This document shows positions 39,801 through 45,697 of a DNA stretch of 64,000 bases, piece after piece (position 1 is the stretch's first letter; each line of letters starts with the position of its first letter). Source of the DNA: Deltaproteobacteria bacterium (GTDB lineage: Bacteria > Desulfobacterota > Desulfobacteria > Desulfobacterales > Desulfobacteraceae); assembly GCA_013151635.1 (NCBI GenBank), contig JAADHV010000128.1, positions 62,001 through 126,000 on the forward strand, in the 5' to 3' direction. A model generated the notes under the pieces. It worked only from the letters and a program-made list of their open reading frames with translations, was not told the origin of the DNA and did no database searches. The position numbers were made by a program, and so were the translations under genes.

Positions 39801-40835
39801 TTAAGTCCAGTCAAGTATGACTTTCCCTGACTTCCCCGACCTCATTATTTCAAATCCTTTTTTAAATTGTGTATAATGAAATTTATGGGTGATTAAAGGC
39901 ACAATATCAAGCCCGCTTTGAATCATGCTGCTCATTTTATACCAGGTTTCATACATTTCCCTGCCGTAGATGCCCTTTATCGTCAGCATGTTAAATACAA
40001 CTTTGTTCCAGTCAATATCCGTGTTCTCCGGCATGATGCCCAGAAGGGCAATTTTCCCGCCATGGCACATATTGTCAAGAATTGACCTTAAGGCGGCAGG
40101 GTTGCCGGACATTTCCATGGCCACATCAAACCCTTCTTTCATGCCAAGGTCTTTCTGGGCCTGTTCAATGCTTTTTTTTGTTACATCAATGGCCATTGTG
40201 GCCCCGGCTTTTTTGGCAAGATCAAGCCGGTAAGGATTGACATCTGTTACCACGACATAGCGTGCACCGGAATGCTTTGCAATAGCCGCGGCCATACAGC
40301 CTATGGGGCCGGCCCCTGTAATCAGGACATCTTCTCCCAGGACGTCAAAAGAAAGCGCCGTATGGGTTGCATTTCCAAGGGGGTCAAAACAGGCAAGGAC
40401 ATCTAAAGGGATGTTTTTATTGCAATACCAGACATTTGTGACCGGTATAGCAAGATATTCGGCAAAGGCCCCAGGCCTGTTGACGCCAACCCCTTTTGTG
40501 TCCCTGCACAAGTGCCGCCGCCCGGCAAGGCAGTTCCTGCAATGTCCGCAAACCAGATGGCCTTCCCCTGAAACAAGGTCTCCTGGTTTGAAATCCACTA
40601 CATGGGAACCTGTTTTCTCAATTGTTCCTACAAATTCATGACCAATGTGCATGGGAACAGGAATTGTCTGCTGTGACCATTTGTCCCAGTTGTAAATATG
40701 GACATCAGTTCCGCAAATGGCAGTTTTAACGATTTTTATCAAAACTTCATTATGGCTGATATCCGGAACTTGCACATCCTTTAGCCATAGACCTTCTTCA
40801 GGCTTTGTTTTTACAAGCGCTTTCATTGTTTTCAT
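39801..40835 (-). CDS. tdh: L-threonine 3-dehydrogenase
   Basis: A 344-residue zinc alcohol-dehydrogenase-family enzyme, which oxidises threonine to 2-amino-3-ketobutyrate with NAD. Catalytic zinc motif is [15 protein letters not shown] with GHEFVG, structural zinc is [15 protein letters not shown], and the NAD motif is [12 protein letters not shown]. Known Tdh proteins begin MKAL, so the second ATG (40826) may be the true start; neither has a clear ribosome site. Its first codon and upstream region lie in the direct repeat that flanks the restriction-modification island, so the island interrupts its promoter side. Confidence 0.93.
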
Positions 40836-40921
40836 GAGATATAAATCCGGTTAATTCATATGTAAATACTAATATTTCCCCATGAAAATGAATATACTAT
40901 AAATGCTGATGAAATACTATC
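40830..40921. repeat. Left direct repeat of the restriction-modification island
   Basis: This 92-base segment matches 43181-43266. The inner 52 bases (40870-40921 and 43215-43266) are identical; the outer part has a few substitutions and a 6-base indel. It covers the tdh upstream region. Confidence 0.9.
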
Positions 40922-40966
40922 TGCAAAAGAAAAGTTTAGAGGCTGAATTGAAAGGACTTGCTTTAG

Positions 40967-40975
40967 CCCCCCCCC
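40967..40975 (+). repeat. C9 homopolymer tract
   Basis: Nine consecutive C in AT-rich sequence just inside the left end of the island and past the methyltransferase stop. It is non-coding here. Confidence 0.9.
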
Positions 40976-41002
40976 TGGAAAAATTAAGTGGAAATCAACC
41001 TG

Positions 41003-41856
41003 TTAAATGTTATTGGTGACAGCTGCCAGTCTTTTTTTGGCTATATTCAAATATTTAATATTATTGTCAATGCCGACAAATTTTCGATTTAGTTTTTTAC
41101 ATGCAACTCCTGTTGTGCCGCTACCGCAAAATGGATCAAAAACTAAATCGTTAACATTAGTAGATGCAATTATTGCTCTTTTTACAACGCTTTCAGGTTT
41201 TTGTGTCGGATGTTTTCCGAAATTTTTTTCAGAATTATTGGCTGATGCCATTTTCCAGATATCTCGCCATACAGATTTCATGGGATACCCATTAGAAATA
41301 GTTTTGAGTACATCATAATTAAAAATATGTTTTGAATGCTTTGTTTTTGCTGCCCAGATAATGTGTTCAGATGCATGAGTAAAATATTTTTTGGCTAAAT
41401 TTGGTGGCGGATCTGGTTTTTCCCAGACGATATTATTTAATATTTTAAAATTTAACTCCTGTAGAGCAAATCCGACTGAGAATATATTATGAAATGTTCC
41501 ACAAACCCAGATGGAGCCGTTTTTTTTAAAATCCGTTTACTTTCCAATAACCATTTCCTGTTGAAATCATGCACAGCTTTTATGTCCCGGGACTTATCCC
41601 ACACACCCTTATCAACACAGACCTTTTTGCCACTTTTGCATGTTATTCCACCCGAAGATAAAAAATAAGGTGGGTCTGCAAAAATAAGATCGACACAATT
41701 GCCTGGTATATTTGTAAAGAAGGACAATGCATCTAAATTATATAATTTAATTTTACTGACAACATCGTAATAAAATGGTGGAATATGATCTTCACAGATT
41801 TTATCATGTTGATTGAAATCAAATATATTTAAATCATTGGCGATATAATATTTCAT
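41003..41856 (-). pseudogene. Beta-class DNA methyltransferase, frame-broken at an A8 tract
   Basis: Two adjacent frames together give a 284-residue N6-adenine/N4-cytosine methyltransferase. The first part (41856-41521) carries motif IV DLIFADPPY. It then leaves frame in a run of eight A (minus strand of 41520-41527) and stops at 41452. The second frame continues NGSIWVCGTF..LNNIVWEKPDPPPNL and ends with HPTQKPE and motif I VFDPFCGSGTTGVACKKLNRKF. One extra A would restore the frame, and a -1 slip at the in-frame A AAA AAA heptamer would do the same. It may be a pseudogene, a phase-variable gene, a frameshifting gene or a sequencing error. Confidence 0.85.
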
Positions 41857-41914
41857 AAAATAATTTTAACAAAATCAAGTATTAATGTCGCCTTGTTCAG
41901 GCTCTTTTTTTGCT

Positions 41915-42571
41915 TTATCCCGCAGTAGCTTTATTAAGAGGTACAACTTTTTCAACTTGAGAATGATTTGAATATGTTTCCCAATCAGGGGTATATTCTG
42001 CTGCTTGATTTCCCCAGGTTGTCCATCCTTTCCTTTTCCCCCGGCCGAAAAGCTCCAGAAATGGTCCCCAGCTGCAAGATTCTATTAAATCATATTGTTC
42101 ATCCGGTTTTCTACTATGTTCTCTTTTCCGTGATGATATAATATTTTCCTGGCTTCTTCCAGGCTGTAATGTTCTTATATTTTTACCACGTACTCCGAAC
42201 AAAATCATTTCAGTAACATTCCTGAAATAAAAGCCGACACCTCTTCTGTCAGGCCCACCATCTTTTCTGATTTTGTACCAGATCAAGTTTGTTTTATATT
42301 TAAAACCCCAATGTTCCATTACCTGCATACCTTCTGCTAAGAGTGCATTTGGAACCCATAAATAAAGATGAGCTCTTTCTTTTGCAACAGCTTCTACAGG
42401 CAGTCCTTTTATTTCTTGCAACTTCATTGTAGAATAGCGTAACAGCCTTTTATGCTCCGGCGCCATTTTGCCAGTACGATTTTGAAACTGCCACGGTGGG
42501 TCAGCAAGTATTGTTGAATATTTCTTTTCACCGATAAAGTCCAATAAATCATCTGAAGCATTCATAGTCAT
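41915..42571 (-). CDS. MT-A70-family DNA adenine methyltransferase
   Basis: About 218 residues of the MT-A70 family, which methylates adenine N6. Catalytic motif IV is STILADPPWQF near residue 20, and the RHxxxx-type core continues with HLYLWVPNALLAEGMQVMEHWGFKYKTNLIWYK. The start is the ATG at 42571, whose ATGA overlaps the restriction enzyme stop, so translation is coupled. The C-terminal region (WGPFLELFGRGKRKGWTTWGNQ) is typical. It would protect host DNA against the adjacent endonuclease if the specificities match. AT-rich compared with flanking genes. Confidence 0.88.
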   Translation of the reverse strand: MTMNASDDLLDFIGEKKYSTILADPPWQFQNRTGKMAPEHKRLLRYSTMKLQEIKGLPVEAVAKERAHLYLWVPNALLAEGMQVMEHWGFKYKTNLIWYKIRKDGGPDRRGVGFYFRNVTEMILFGVRGKNIRTLQPGRSQENIISSRKREHSRKPDEQYDLIESCSWGPFLELFGRGKRKGWTTWGNQAAEYTPDWETYSNHSQVEKVVPLNKATAG

Positions 42572-43158
42572 ACGTCCTTTACATAAAGAGATTTTGAAAT
42601 TCCAAAAACTACAAGCGGGCATCCTGCTCCGCTGCCACCTTCTACTCTTGGAATCAACTTGCTCATATGCGTTGTTGATGCTCCATAAGATGAGCCTCTG
42701 CCGATATCATTAAATATTTCTTGAAGGTTATCACATCGCGTAATAATGACACCAACACTAATTGCGCGCAGATCAAAGAGTAACCTGAAATTATTTAAAT
42801 CCCGATCGAAAAAAGGATCTTTATTATTCCATTCAATTTCCAGGGCAACTCTATTTTTAAAACAGTCAATTTTGTGAGTTGGGGTATCCATTGTATGATC
42901 ATCAACAATAACTTTGGTTGCAAATTCTTTTTCAACCCAGTCTCTTTGATAAAGGTATTCGTCTATATAGCCGGAAACCTTTGATTTCCTTCCACCGGCC
43001 TTCATGATCCAGCTCTTTTTCAGCCGGAAATCTTTTAGAACTGATATTATATCATTCCATTCGTTTTTAAAATCTTGCTTCAAAATAGCGCAAGCATGTT
43101 TCCATTCATATACTTCATAGTTTTTTCTGATAAATTCAGGAAGCAATTCTATGCTCAT
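42568..43158 (-). CDS. BglII/BstYI-type type II restriction endonuclease
   Basis: A 196-residue protein resembling the BglII/BstYI endonuclease family. The PD-(D/E)xK-like core reads HKIDCFKNRVALEIEWNNKD: Asp98, eight residues, Glu107, one residue, Glu109, matching BglII Asp84, Glu93 and Gln95 in spacing. It continues FDRDLNNFRLLFDLRAISVGVIITR. Known members cut AGATCT or RGATCY, so a GATC-centred site is plausible. GGAG lies 6-7 bases before the ATG. Its upstream region is the right copy of the tdh-derived repeat. It is first in a three-gene minus-strand unit with two methyltransferase genes. Confidence 0.85.
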   Translation of the reverse strand: MSIELLPEFIRKNYEVYEWKHACAILKQDFKNEWNDIISVLKDFRLKKSWIMKAGGRKSKVSGYIDEYLYQRDWVEKEFATKVIVDDHTMDTPTHKIDCFKNRVALEIEWNNKDPFFDRDLNNFRLLFDLRAISVGVIITRCDNLQEIFNDIGRGSSYGASTTHMSKLIPRVEGGSGAGCPLVVFGISKSLYVKDV

Positions 43159-43180
43159 GTTTTCTCCATGCTCCGTGTAT

Positions 43181-43266
43181 TTTCATTAGAGATAAATTCG
43201 GTTAATTCATATATTAATATTTCCCCATGAAAATGAATATACTATAAATGCTGATGAAATACTATC
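43181..43266. repeat. Right direct repeat of the restriction-modification island
   Basis: An 86-base copy of 40830-40921 in the same orientation, including the 52-base identical block at 43215-43266. It ends 22 bases before the endonuclease start and probably supplies that gene's promoter. Confidence 0.9.
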
Positions 43267-43434
43267 CACAAAGATTCTTTATACGAGGTCTCTATCTAAG
43301 TCAAAATTATCAGTCCTGAAACGCAATGGAAATATCATAAAACACTTCAACTGCTAAAATTTTGATATAGATAGATCAAATAAAAACCACAAGCTCCCCA
43401 ACCAGGAAAAAGTACAATAGACCCGGATGGCATG

Positions 43435-44460
43435 CTAAAGATGCTCTATCCCTTTTTCAAGCAGGTTCAGTAAATTTTGTTTTTCTTCAGGGAATTTATA
43501 CCCTTCATAGCTTTGATTTAAAAGCAGTCTGCCATTGGGCGCGGTCCAGCAGTTGCCTGCGTGGTCAAAGCAGACTCTTGAGGTGACATCCAGAGTCTGA
43601 ATTGTCTGCTTGATTTCCAACAGCTGCTCTTTGGGTGTCATTTGATCAAGTTCATTTTTTGATGCTTGTTTGTAAAATATTGTCCCGGGTCTCGGGGTAA
43701 ACGGCCGTGACCTGATGTAGTGAGGATTGATTTTATTGAGTACTGACCCCGTGTTTTTTGCATGGTCTTTTGACATTGTTTTGCCGCCAAGACCAGGCAT
43801 CCAGTATTCTGAAACCTGAAAGCCCGCTTTTATTGCCTTTTTGCCTCCTTTTACGTGATCTTCCGGCGTGGCCCCTTTTTTGATCTTTTCAAGCAGGGCT
43901 GCATCTCCTGTCTCAAGCCCGATATGGAGCCGGTCAAGGCCGGCCCTGTGAATCCTTGCAAGATCTGAAGCAGATTTTCTTACAATTGTCCTGGATCTTC
44001 CGTATGAGGTGATTCTTTGAATTGCACGGAAAGTTGTTTTTAAGTGGTTTAAGACTTGAACCATGTGATCAGTCTTCATGATCAGGCTGTCAGCATCCTG
44101 GAAAAAGACAGTTTTCCCCCCGGAAACAAGCCAGCTGAACAGCATGGAAATACCCTGGTGGAAATAAAGATCAGGTGTTTTTTGTATAAATTCACTAATT
44201 GCCTGTGTGCCAATCTTACCTTTGGGATCTGTTTTTTGGGAAATTTTTTTTAACCTTGAATAGATGTCATGCATGACATTGATATCTTGAATGATATTTT
44301 CAGGCTTGCGGAGTTCAAACTTTTCTGATTTGTACATGGCACAGAAGGTACAATGGTTCCAGGGGCAGTTCCGGGTCAGTCTTAAAAGAAGGGACGCTCT
44401 TCCTCCTTCACTGGGTGGCCGGTAAATGCCGGTTTCAAACTCATAATTTTTTATATCCAT
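43435..44460 (-). CDS. Radical SAM protein, unknown substrate
   Basis: About 341 residues from the ATG at 44460 (MDIKNYEFETGIYRPPSEGG); a longer frame upstream looks non-coding and hydrophobic. The cluster motif is NCPWNHCTFC, spacing C-x4-C-x2-C instead of the usual C-x3-C-x2-C. It continues with HIGLETGDAALLEKIKKGATPEDH, as in Elp3/MiaB-like SPASM-free proteins, and GFQVSEYWMPGLGGK. The C-terminal part has CFDHAGNCWTAPNGRLLLNQSYEGYKFP. No function can be assigned. It is divergent from the aminotransferase gene. Confidence 0.8.
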   Translation of the reverse strand: MDIKNYEFETGIYRPPSEGGRASLLLRLTRNCPWNHCTFCAMYKSEKFELRKPENIIQDINVMHDIYSRLKKISQKTDPKGKIGTQAISEFIQKTPDLYFHQGISMLFSWLVSGGKTVFFQDADSLIMKTDHMVQVLNHLKTTFRAIQRITSYGRSRTIVRKSASDLARIHRAGLDRLHIGLETGDAALLEKIKKGATPEDHVKGGKKAIKAGFQVSEYWMPGLGGKTMSKDHAKNTGSVLNKINPHYIRSRPFTPRPGTIFYKQASKNELDQMTPKEQLLEIKQTIQTLDVTSRVCFDHAGNCWTAPNGRLLLNQSYEGYKFPEEKQNLLNLLEKGIEHL

Positions 44461-44632
44461 AAAGAAGTCTTTTTTCCTTTGTCTTAAGCGGATAAATAAT
44501 TTAGTATAGTACCCGAAAAAAAATGAGCCCGTCAATATAGTAAGGATAAAATTATCTTGACAAAGAATAAATTTAACGCTCATATATTTTAAGTAAACAA
44601 AGTTAATTTTAATTAAACTTATGGAGGATGTA

Positions 44633-45697
44633 ATGGAAATCAAAATCACTCTGGCAGACACGAACAGAATACGGCCTGAAGATTCTGACCTGGGATTTGG
44701 CCAGGTGTTTACGGATCATATGTTTGTCATGGATTATTCCGGAGATAAAGGGTGGCATGATCCCAGGATAGAACCTTATGCTGATTTTAAAGTTTCTCCT
44801 GCTGCCATGGTTTTCCATTACGGGCAGGCCATTTTCGAGGGTTTAAAAGCGTATAAGACGCAGGAGAACAAGATCTGCCTTTTCAGGGCCAGGGATAATT
44901 TTGAACGGATGAACCGGTCTGCAAAGGGGATGTGCATCCCATGCATTGACATAGATTTTATTATGGATGCCTTGAAAAAATTGATAAGACTGGAAGAAAA
45001 ATGGATTCCTGAAACCCTTGGGACTTCTTTGTATATAAGACCCACAATTATAGCAACCGATCCGTTTTTAGGGGTACGCGCATCCTTTACTTATAAATTT
45101 TTCATTATCCTGTCTTCTGTGGGCGCATATTATGCCGAAGGCTTGAATCCGGTGAAAATCTGGGTTTCAAAAGACCATGTAAGAGCAGTCAGGGGTGGTG
45201 TGGGTGAATTTAAAACCGCCGGCAATTATGCTGCAAGCCTTATTGCATCTGAAAAAGCTAAAAAGGATGGATATGCCCAGGTTCTCTGGCTTGATGCGAT
45301 TGAAAGAAAGTATATCGAAGAAGTGGGCGCCATGAATATCTTTTTTCTTATCAATGATGAGCTTGTGACTCCCAATCTCACCGGCAGTATCCTTCCCGGT
45401 ATAACAAGGTATTCGGTCATCAACCTTGCAAAAAAATGGGGTATGAATATCTCTGAAAGAAAAATCAGTATTGATGAAGTGTTTTTGGCCCATGAAAAGG
45501 GAAAGCTGGCAGAAGTGTTTGGTTCCGGAACTGCGGCTGTTATTTCTCCTGTGGGTGAAATAAGATATGGAGATAAGGTTATTTCCATTGGTGACGGCAC
45601 TCCTGGTGAAACTGCCATGAAGTTTTATAATGCATTAACCGACATACAATACGGGAAAGCCGATGACAGTGAGAACTGGATTGAAGTAATCAATTAA
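44633..45697 (+). CDS. ilvE: Branched-chain amino acid aminotransferase
   Basis: About 354 residues, PLP fold type IV, BCAT group II. It swaps the amino group of Leu, Ile or Val with 2-oxoglutarate. Landmarks are FHYGQAIFEGLKAYKT, YIRPTIIATDPFLGVR, the PLP lysine in GEFKTAGNYAASL and EEVGAMNIFFLIND. The ATG at 44633 is preferred because GGAGG lies 5 bases upstream; the ATG at 44621 lacks a site. A TTGACA at 44557-44562 may be its -35. It precedes an XRE-cupin regulator by 11 bases and an acyl-CoA dehydrogenase, forming a catabolic operon that feeds the VOR enzyme. Confidence 0.92.
   Translation: MEIKITLADTNRIRPEDSDLGFGQVFTDHMFVMDYSGDKGWHDPRIEPYADFKVSPAAMVFHYGQAIFEGLKAYKTQENKICLFRARDNFERMNRSAKGMCIPCIDIDFIMDALKKLIRLEEKWIPETLGTSLYIRPTIIATDPFLGVRASFTYKFFIILSSVGAYYAEGLNPVKIWVSKDHVRAVRGGVGEFKTAGNYAASLIASEKAKKDGYAQVLWLDAIERKYIEEVGAMNIFFLINDELVTPNLTGSILPGITRYSVINLAKKWGMNISERKISIDEVFLAHEKGKLAEVFGSGTAAVISPVGEIRYGDKVISIGDGTPGETAMKFYNALTDIQYGKADDSENWIEVIN

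Follow-up and report, generated by a model that had tools for sequence, protein, structure and literature searches.

A restriction-modification gene unit probably inserted at the tdh promoter with duplication of about 100 bp of its target in a Desulfobacteraceae genome

In a 64,000-nt stretch of a Desulfobacteraceae genome (contig JAADHV010000128.1, positions 62,001 to 126,000; the window), a set of restriction-modification (RM) genes lies upstream of tdh, the gene for L-threonine 3-dehydrogenase, between two long direct repeats, and the question this locus raises is how the RM genes came to be there. The original prediction was insertion at the tdh promoter with a long target duplication. Our analysis supports it through sites with a single repeat copy in congeners, a repeat that is not dispersed, and adjacency of a radical-SAM gene to tdh in three congeners (G003, G015, and G025; G numbers denote genomes and L numbers denote cassette loci). 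We consider it likely that an RM gene unit inserted at the start and promoter region of tdh and duplicated about 100 bp of this target. The parts of the locus that bear on this are the following:

40829-40927, minus strand: left repeat copy, 99 nt, comprising the native tdh start codon, leader, and upstream region
43180-43272, minus strand: right repeat copy, 93 nt, preceding the endonuclease start by 21 bp
40928-43179, minus strand: inserted segment between the repeat copies, 2,252 bp, with about 36% GC compared with 41.6% for the window
39801-40835, minus strand: tdh, the target gene, with an intact open reading frame (ORF) and NCBIfam NF003808/TIGR00692 above cut-off
43435-44661, minus strand: radical-SAM gene (Pfam PF04055), the upstream neighbor of tdh in G003, G015, and G025

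The two repeat copies align over 99 columns at 87.9% identity with a single 6-nt gap, and their longest identical run is 52 nt (40870-40921 = 43215-43266), in agreement with the predicted pair of 86-92 bases sharing 52 identical ones. Their placement was also predicted correctly, with the left copy over the tdh upstream region and the right copy before the endonuclease gene; the left copy additionally takes in the tdh start codon, extending upstream from base 1 of codon 3 (ATGAAAA included). We ruled out a chance repeat because the only exact direct repeats of at least 30 nt in the window (23 exact 30-mers) come from this pair, and a dispersed repeat or miniature inverted-repeat transposable element because the only two matches at E ≤ 0.001 in the 4.2-Mb assembly to which the window belongs (95% complete) are the left and right copies. 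The window contains no exact inverted 30-mer repeats. A duplication extending past 99 nt was judged unconvincing: when we aligned 73 nt from the inner side and 160 nt from the outer side with 11 congener upstream regions, three of the 22 comparisons gave a shuffle p of 0.02-0.04 (G024, G006, and G002), all on the inner side and with differing or 11-nt matches.

Relatives supplied the empty sites that the original prediction had expected. The left copy matched sequences in 13 of 86 family genomes, its own included. A single recognizable copy overlaps the tdh start in six of 25 congeners (E ≤ 5.8e-4), at identities of 83% in G015, 82% in G011, 79% in G023, 76% in G006, 73% in G022, and 68% in G024, and two copies occur in none of the 25. 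No BLAST-level repeat copy was found at tdh in the other 19 congeners, and the remaining six matching family genomes have matches of 22-48 nt only. We also examined 20 congener tdh loci for a nearby radical-SAM gene, using flanks of at most 1.5 kb, many of them shorter. It adjoins tdh, with no island between, in G003 (108 bp from the last aligned radical-SAM residue to tdh), G015 (115 bp), and G025 (140 bp); in the window, 2,599 bp lie between the two genes. G015 carries both the BLAST-level repeat copy and the adjacency. Completeness is limited for several of the congener genomes (68% for G015 and 81% for G003).

To place the duplication in time, we built a tree from the two copies and the upstream regions of eight congeners, picked because these align with the copies. 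The left and right copies group together with support 92/99, on branches of 0.03 and 0.092, respectively. This grouping and these branch lengths, as moderate evidence, indicate that the duplication most likely happened later than the split from the tree congeners and that the right copy, which does not lead into tdh any more, changed more.

The minus-strand order of the locus is radical-SAM gene, right repeat, endonuclease gene (R), MT-A70-family methyltransferase gene, second methyltransferase gene (the third gene of the unit), left repeat, and tdh. The insert is lower in GC than 98.8% of same-size segments, and its ORFs of at least 70 aa are the RM genes and one 103-aa ORF, antisense to the methyltransferase, for which Pfam gave nothing above cut-off. 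As predicted for transposases, a Pfam analysis of these ORFs found no transposase, integrase, or insertion sequence (IS) in the insert; nor did we find terminal inverted repeats at the insert, where shuffles reached the score in 274 of 500 cases. The closest cassettes, L202 and L081, lie at loci unrelated to tdh, the former beside an AAA ATPase gene and the latter after a histidine kinase gene. DNA similarity to L202 (81%) covers 43168-41030 and that to L081 (74%) covers 43161-41027; past these limits, the only ones among the matches listed are under 30 nt. Judged by the extent of this similarity, the shared unit begins 3-10 bp before R and stops about 25 bp before the third gene ends.

In the sequence of events we propose, a type II RM unit (endonuclease, MT-A70, and second methyltransferase) would have entered the tdh start and promoter region in this lineage, and about 100 bp of target would have been duplicated. 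One copy would remain before tdh, preserving its upstream region, and the other, just ahead of the endonuclease gene, probably acts as a promoter for the RM genes. The insertion might have proceeded without a transposase, for example via a staggered break with fill-in or via end-joining capture, and recombination between the copies could lead to loss of the island.

The proposed promoter function refers to a promoter-like block present in both copies:

43236-43264, minus strand: promoter-like block TAGTAT-N17-TATATT in the right copy, the proposed RM-gene promoter
40891-40919, minus strand: promoter-like block TAGTAT-N17-TATATT in the left copy, the proposed tdh promoter

Within the window, the pattern T[AG]G[CT]AT-N17-[TC]ATA occurs in the two repeat copies only; among 20 congener loci, 11 carry it at a distance of 76-84 bp upstream of tdh. 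We composed the pattern with an alignment of tdh upstream regions already in view, so these counts are a description and not a test. At the G009 tdh locus, just 26 bp were available for the search. Between the right copy and R, a ribosome-binding site (GGAGAAAAC), good by inspection, precedes the ATG, and R is probably transcribed from the tdh promoter in the right copy. A consensus promoter scan returned 12 sites against 11.3 expected and hence provides no evidence. We did not rely on an apparent constraint in the promoter half of the repeat (0 of 29 differing columns versus 11 of 55, Fisher p = 0.013), in which the 6-nt gap was counted as six. As a separate observation, more than one replacement of the tdh upstream region seems to have taken place in the genus, since eight of the 20 congener loci (G002, G005, G012, G013, G016, G017, G018, and G020) have no such block within 160 bp of tdh.

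For the genome loci in our survey of related cassettes, we drew on the best 80 of at least 574. The flank test omitted L172 (the same phage as L078), 11 loci with less than 300 bp on a side, short-flank loci superseded by longer versions, and Pfam-only loci with no tblastn match to R. Flanking direct repeats scoring above 40 bits were present at six of 110 testable loci, the window included, versus none of 228 shifted controls, and after review we retained four loci with long repeats from a neighboring gene end: the window, L221 (in genome G140), L111, and L149. The L221 repeat spans 242 columns and takes in the 5′ end of a ferredoxin-like gene (named by inspection) along with the region upstream of it, the L111 repeat spans 170 columns from the SWIB end of a topoisomerase gene and has a third partial copy, and the L149 repeat spans 132 columns from the C-terminal end of an asparaginase gene. 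L149 is a weaker case, with its repeat at four places on the contig and two elsewhere. G140 has two full copies and short partial matches, while three of four congeners have one full copy. The G140 copy beyond the cassette differs at 7 of 239 positions from congener G176 versus 18 of 239 from its partner copy, and the flank that separates R from the other copy finds its match in congener G205, so this case may reflect import or a hotspot. With G140 ambiguous, a third partial copy at L111, and four copies on the L149 contig, the window is the cleanest case among the surveyed cassettes.

Other candidates were rejected as target duplications: L105, whose repeat is dispersed (seven places); L164, at 72% identity, with copies that read by inspection as related viral or paralogous genes; and L082 and L157, with copies that lie far from the cassette and appear by inspection to be paralogous genes. 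L127 has a 59-column repeat ending at the contig end and was excluded by the 300-bp flank limit. Separately, G140 and G205 are alike just upstream of the ferredoxin-like-gene repeat and then diverge (L221 5526-5611 and L232), which suggests a hotspot receiving different cargo. A broader proposal, that a promoterless BglII/MT-A70 unit reaching from ribosome-binding site to stop codon spreads across distant lineages through transposase-free insertions with gene-end duplications of 100-240 bp, and in promoter insertions gains its promoter from the duplication, strikes us as rather unlikely.

Several observations weigh against insertion with a long target duplication in the window. The 12% divergence between the copies blurs the junctions, and their grouping in the tree rests on 106 columns with support under the starred level of the tool. 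Between the copies and the nearest congener promoters there is a difference of 19-22%, and the empty sites were compared across species, with one genome per species, and not between strains. The radical-SAM gene is near tdh in just five of the 20 congener loci, in two of which, G010 and G017, 0.9 and 1.1 kb lie between; G022 has a weak 27-aa match, and within the flanks searched the gene was not found in the rest. In G003 and G025, despite the adjacency, BLAST detects no repeat copy at tdh; the G003 region can be aligned but differs by 28-29%, and G025 has the promoter-like block alone in common. Among the surveyed cassettes, gene-end repeats occur at only 4 of 110, and the sole other case with congeners, G140, favors import or a hotspot.

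Import by homologous recombination, in which a circle or fragment already carrying a relative's tdh promoter entered by a single crossover at the resident promoter and left two diverged copies, would accommodate both the divergence between the copies and the G140 locus, with one copy nearer G176 than its partner and an R flank matching G205. We nevertheless think it unlikely for the window: the left and right copies group apart from the eight congeners, the cassettes closest to this one are not beside tdh, and the endonuclease has a match in one of the 86 family genomes, its own, and in none of the 85 others.

Attachment sites typically appear as direct repeats at the ends of genes, and genome G482 has several repeats of one gene's 3′ end close to two cassettes of this kind. 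Site-specific integration, with the repeat as attachment site for a recombinase that acts in trans and a passive RM island lacking an integrase of its own, could explain such repeats. It is very unlikely here, as no integrase was found in the insert, the cassette repeats come from genes unrelated to one another and are of unequal length (99, 132, 170, and 242 columns) with no common site apparent, and the site in the window is a promoter region plus start codon. An ancient local duplication of the tdh promoter with a later, unrelated insertion between the copies is highly improbable, for although the ages of the two events are inseparable with the present genomes, none of the 25 congeners has two copies and two events are required where one suffices.

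Insertion with long target duplication, the reading we favor, is already known as a kind of event, although clear examples are few, and was proposed from Helicobacter. Nobusato 2000 and Furuta 2010 reportedly described RM-gene insertion of this type. According to passages in two papers, the insertion of RM systems can be accompanied by target duplications that are long and variable (PMC3874152; PMC3031569); the Helicobacter pylori observation is described in a passage of another (PMC1643837), and that observation or the mechanism is mentioned in passages of PMC1643837 and PMC3154945. As these passages portray the Helicobacter insertions, the window resembles them in having an RM unit with no transposase, direct repeats of about 100 bp, and a single copy in insert-free genomes. 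It differs from them in belonging to a sulfate-reducer-like lineage, in being of BglII/MT-A70 type, in that the duplicated target is a promoter region now preceding the RM genes, and in being compared between species. In the case of PaeR7I, the authors, in the passage concerned, liken an IS-flanked RM form to insertions with long target duplication, and most products there arose via IS1 or IS5 with duplications of 4-10 bp (PMC3031569). Going by that passage, the window is similar in that an RM unit moves into a chromosome and different in that no IS was found in the insert.

The literature passages on long target duplication offer no settled mechanism, and the window adds a case from another lineage that is well bounded and for which congeners show empty sites. 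There is an apparent benefit on both sides, with tdh keeping its upstream region and the incoming RM unit gaining a copy. What our analysis adds is the empty sites, the presumed promoter nature of the duplicated segment, borders close to gene-only, a third gene that may be broken, and a modest recurrence in relatives, and the survey identifies relatives in which the insertion mechanism can be compared. In the open-licence literature, we found no report of long target duplication in Desulfo- lineages and, by title and start of abstract, no paper on a cassette combining BglII and MT-A70.

The genes of the unit are:

42568-43158, minus strand: R, a BglII/BstYI-family restriction endonuclease of 196 aa (Pfam PF09195 Endonuc-BglII, 1.2e-44)
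41915-42622, minus strand: MT-A70-family methyltransferase (Pfam PF05063, 5.3e-34; PADLOC MTase_II; DPPW motif by inspection)
41003-41856, minus strand: third gene, an N6_N4 DNA methyltransferase (Pfam N6_N4_Mtase) in two ORFs, 41452-41856 and 41003-41281

The Endonuc-BglII score of R is 152.4 bits against a curated cut-off of 26. Sequence searches of the PDB with R gave nothing. In a Foldseek search with a predicted model of R (predicted local distance difference test score 75.9, built from 15 sequences), all six matches at E ≤ 0.001 were to BstYI (three) and BamHI (three) chains, at TMq 0.56-0.64; BglII was not among the 50 matches listed. The predicted fold is that of the BstYI/BamHI/BglII group. 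Residues D98, E107, and E109 are invariant in 19 aligned sequences, with a spacing that we take to resemble the BglII D-x8-E-x-Q. Enzymes of the BglII/BstYI type recognize AGATCT or RGATCY, and because the R model matches BstYI and BamHI, a GATC-centered cleavage site is likely. Word counts do not point clearly to a recognition site. AGATCT is mildly low in 180 kb of the host genome (30 observed versus 44.3 expected), and the corresponding counts in congeners are 41/34.3 in G025, 21/20.2 in G007, 23/21.9 in G006, 18/18.4 in G022, and 5/7.2 in G016. GGATCC occurs 23 times versus 44.5 expected in the host DNA, but its scarcity is not specific to the island since it is also seen in G025 (5 versus 19.7); the word is low in G022 and G016 as well, and less low or not low in G006 and G007.

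The predicted three-gene BglII-like system of about 2.3 kb stands as far as BglII-type RM genes over 2,252 bp are concerned and needs correction for the third gene: a one-base shift at an A8 run breaks its reading frame, leaving two parts in different frames. This may be a sequencing error, a switch, or a broken gene; the homologues in L081 (290 aa) and L202 (289 aa) are intact as single ORFs. Among the loci compared, this methyltransferase is more than 60% identical only in L048/L202 and L081. The L202 homologue of the MT-A70 protein starts with MNASDD, which places the equivalent start here at 42565, adjoining the R stop. MT-A70 was matched in two of 26 genus genomes, the host included, the other match being 38% identical. 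Within 121 R loci gathered by similarity to the window R, 113 have an MT-A70 gene on either strand within 2 kb downstream of R, and the widespread core of the cassette is R plus MT-A70. Two named phages among these, NrS-3 and vB_MloP_Lo5R7ANS, are alike in that R adjoins MT-A70, with R 64% and 56% identical, respectively; the window, unlike the phages, has the additional, frameshifted methyltransferase.

Two further loci deserve mention. In G482, an Acidobacteria metagenome-assembled genome (MAG), the 3′ end of mutS (named by inspection) is duplicated over 323 columns at 88.5% (L247 3500-3822 and 5325-5647) on either side of a sigma-factor-like module, and asparaginase 3′-end fragments precede both R/MT-A70 cassettes, a pattern that may stem from repeated insertion at the ends of genes, accompanied by long duplications. 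In a Phycisphaerae MAG, the R homologue at L108 6001-6585 has an internal stop codon.

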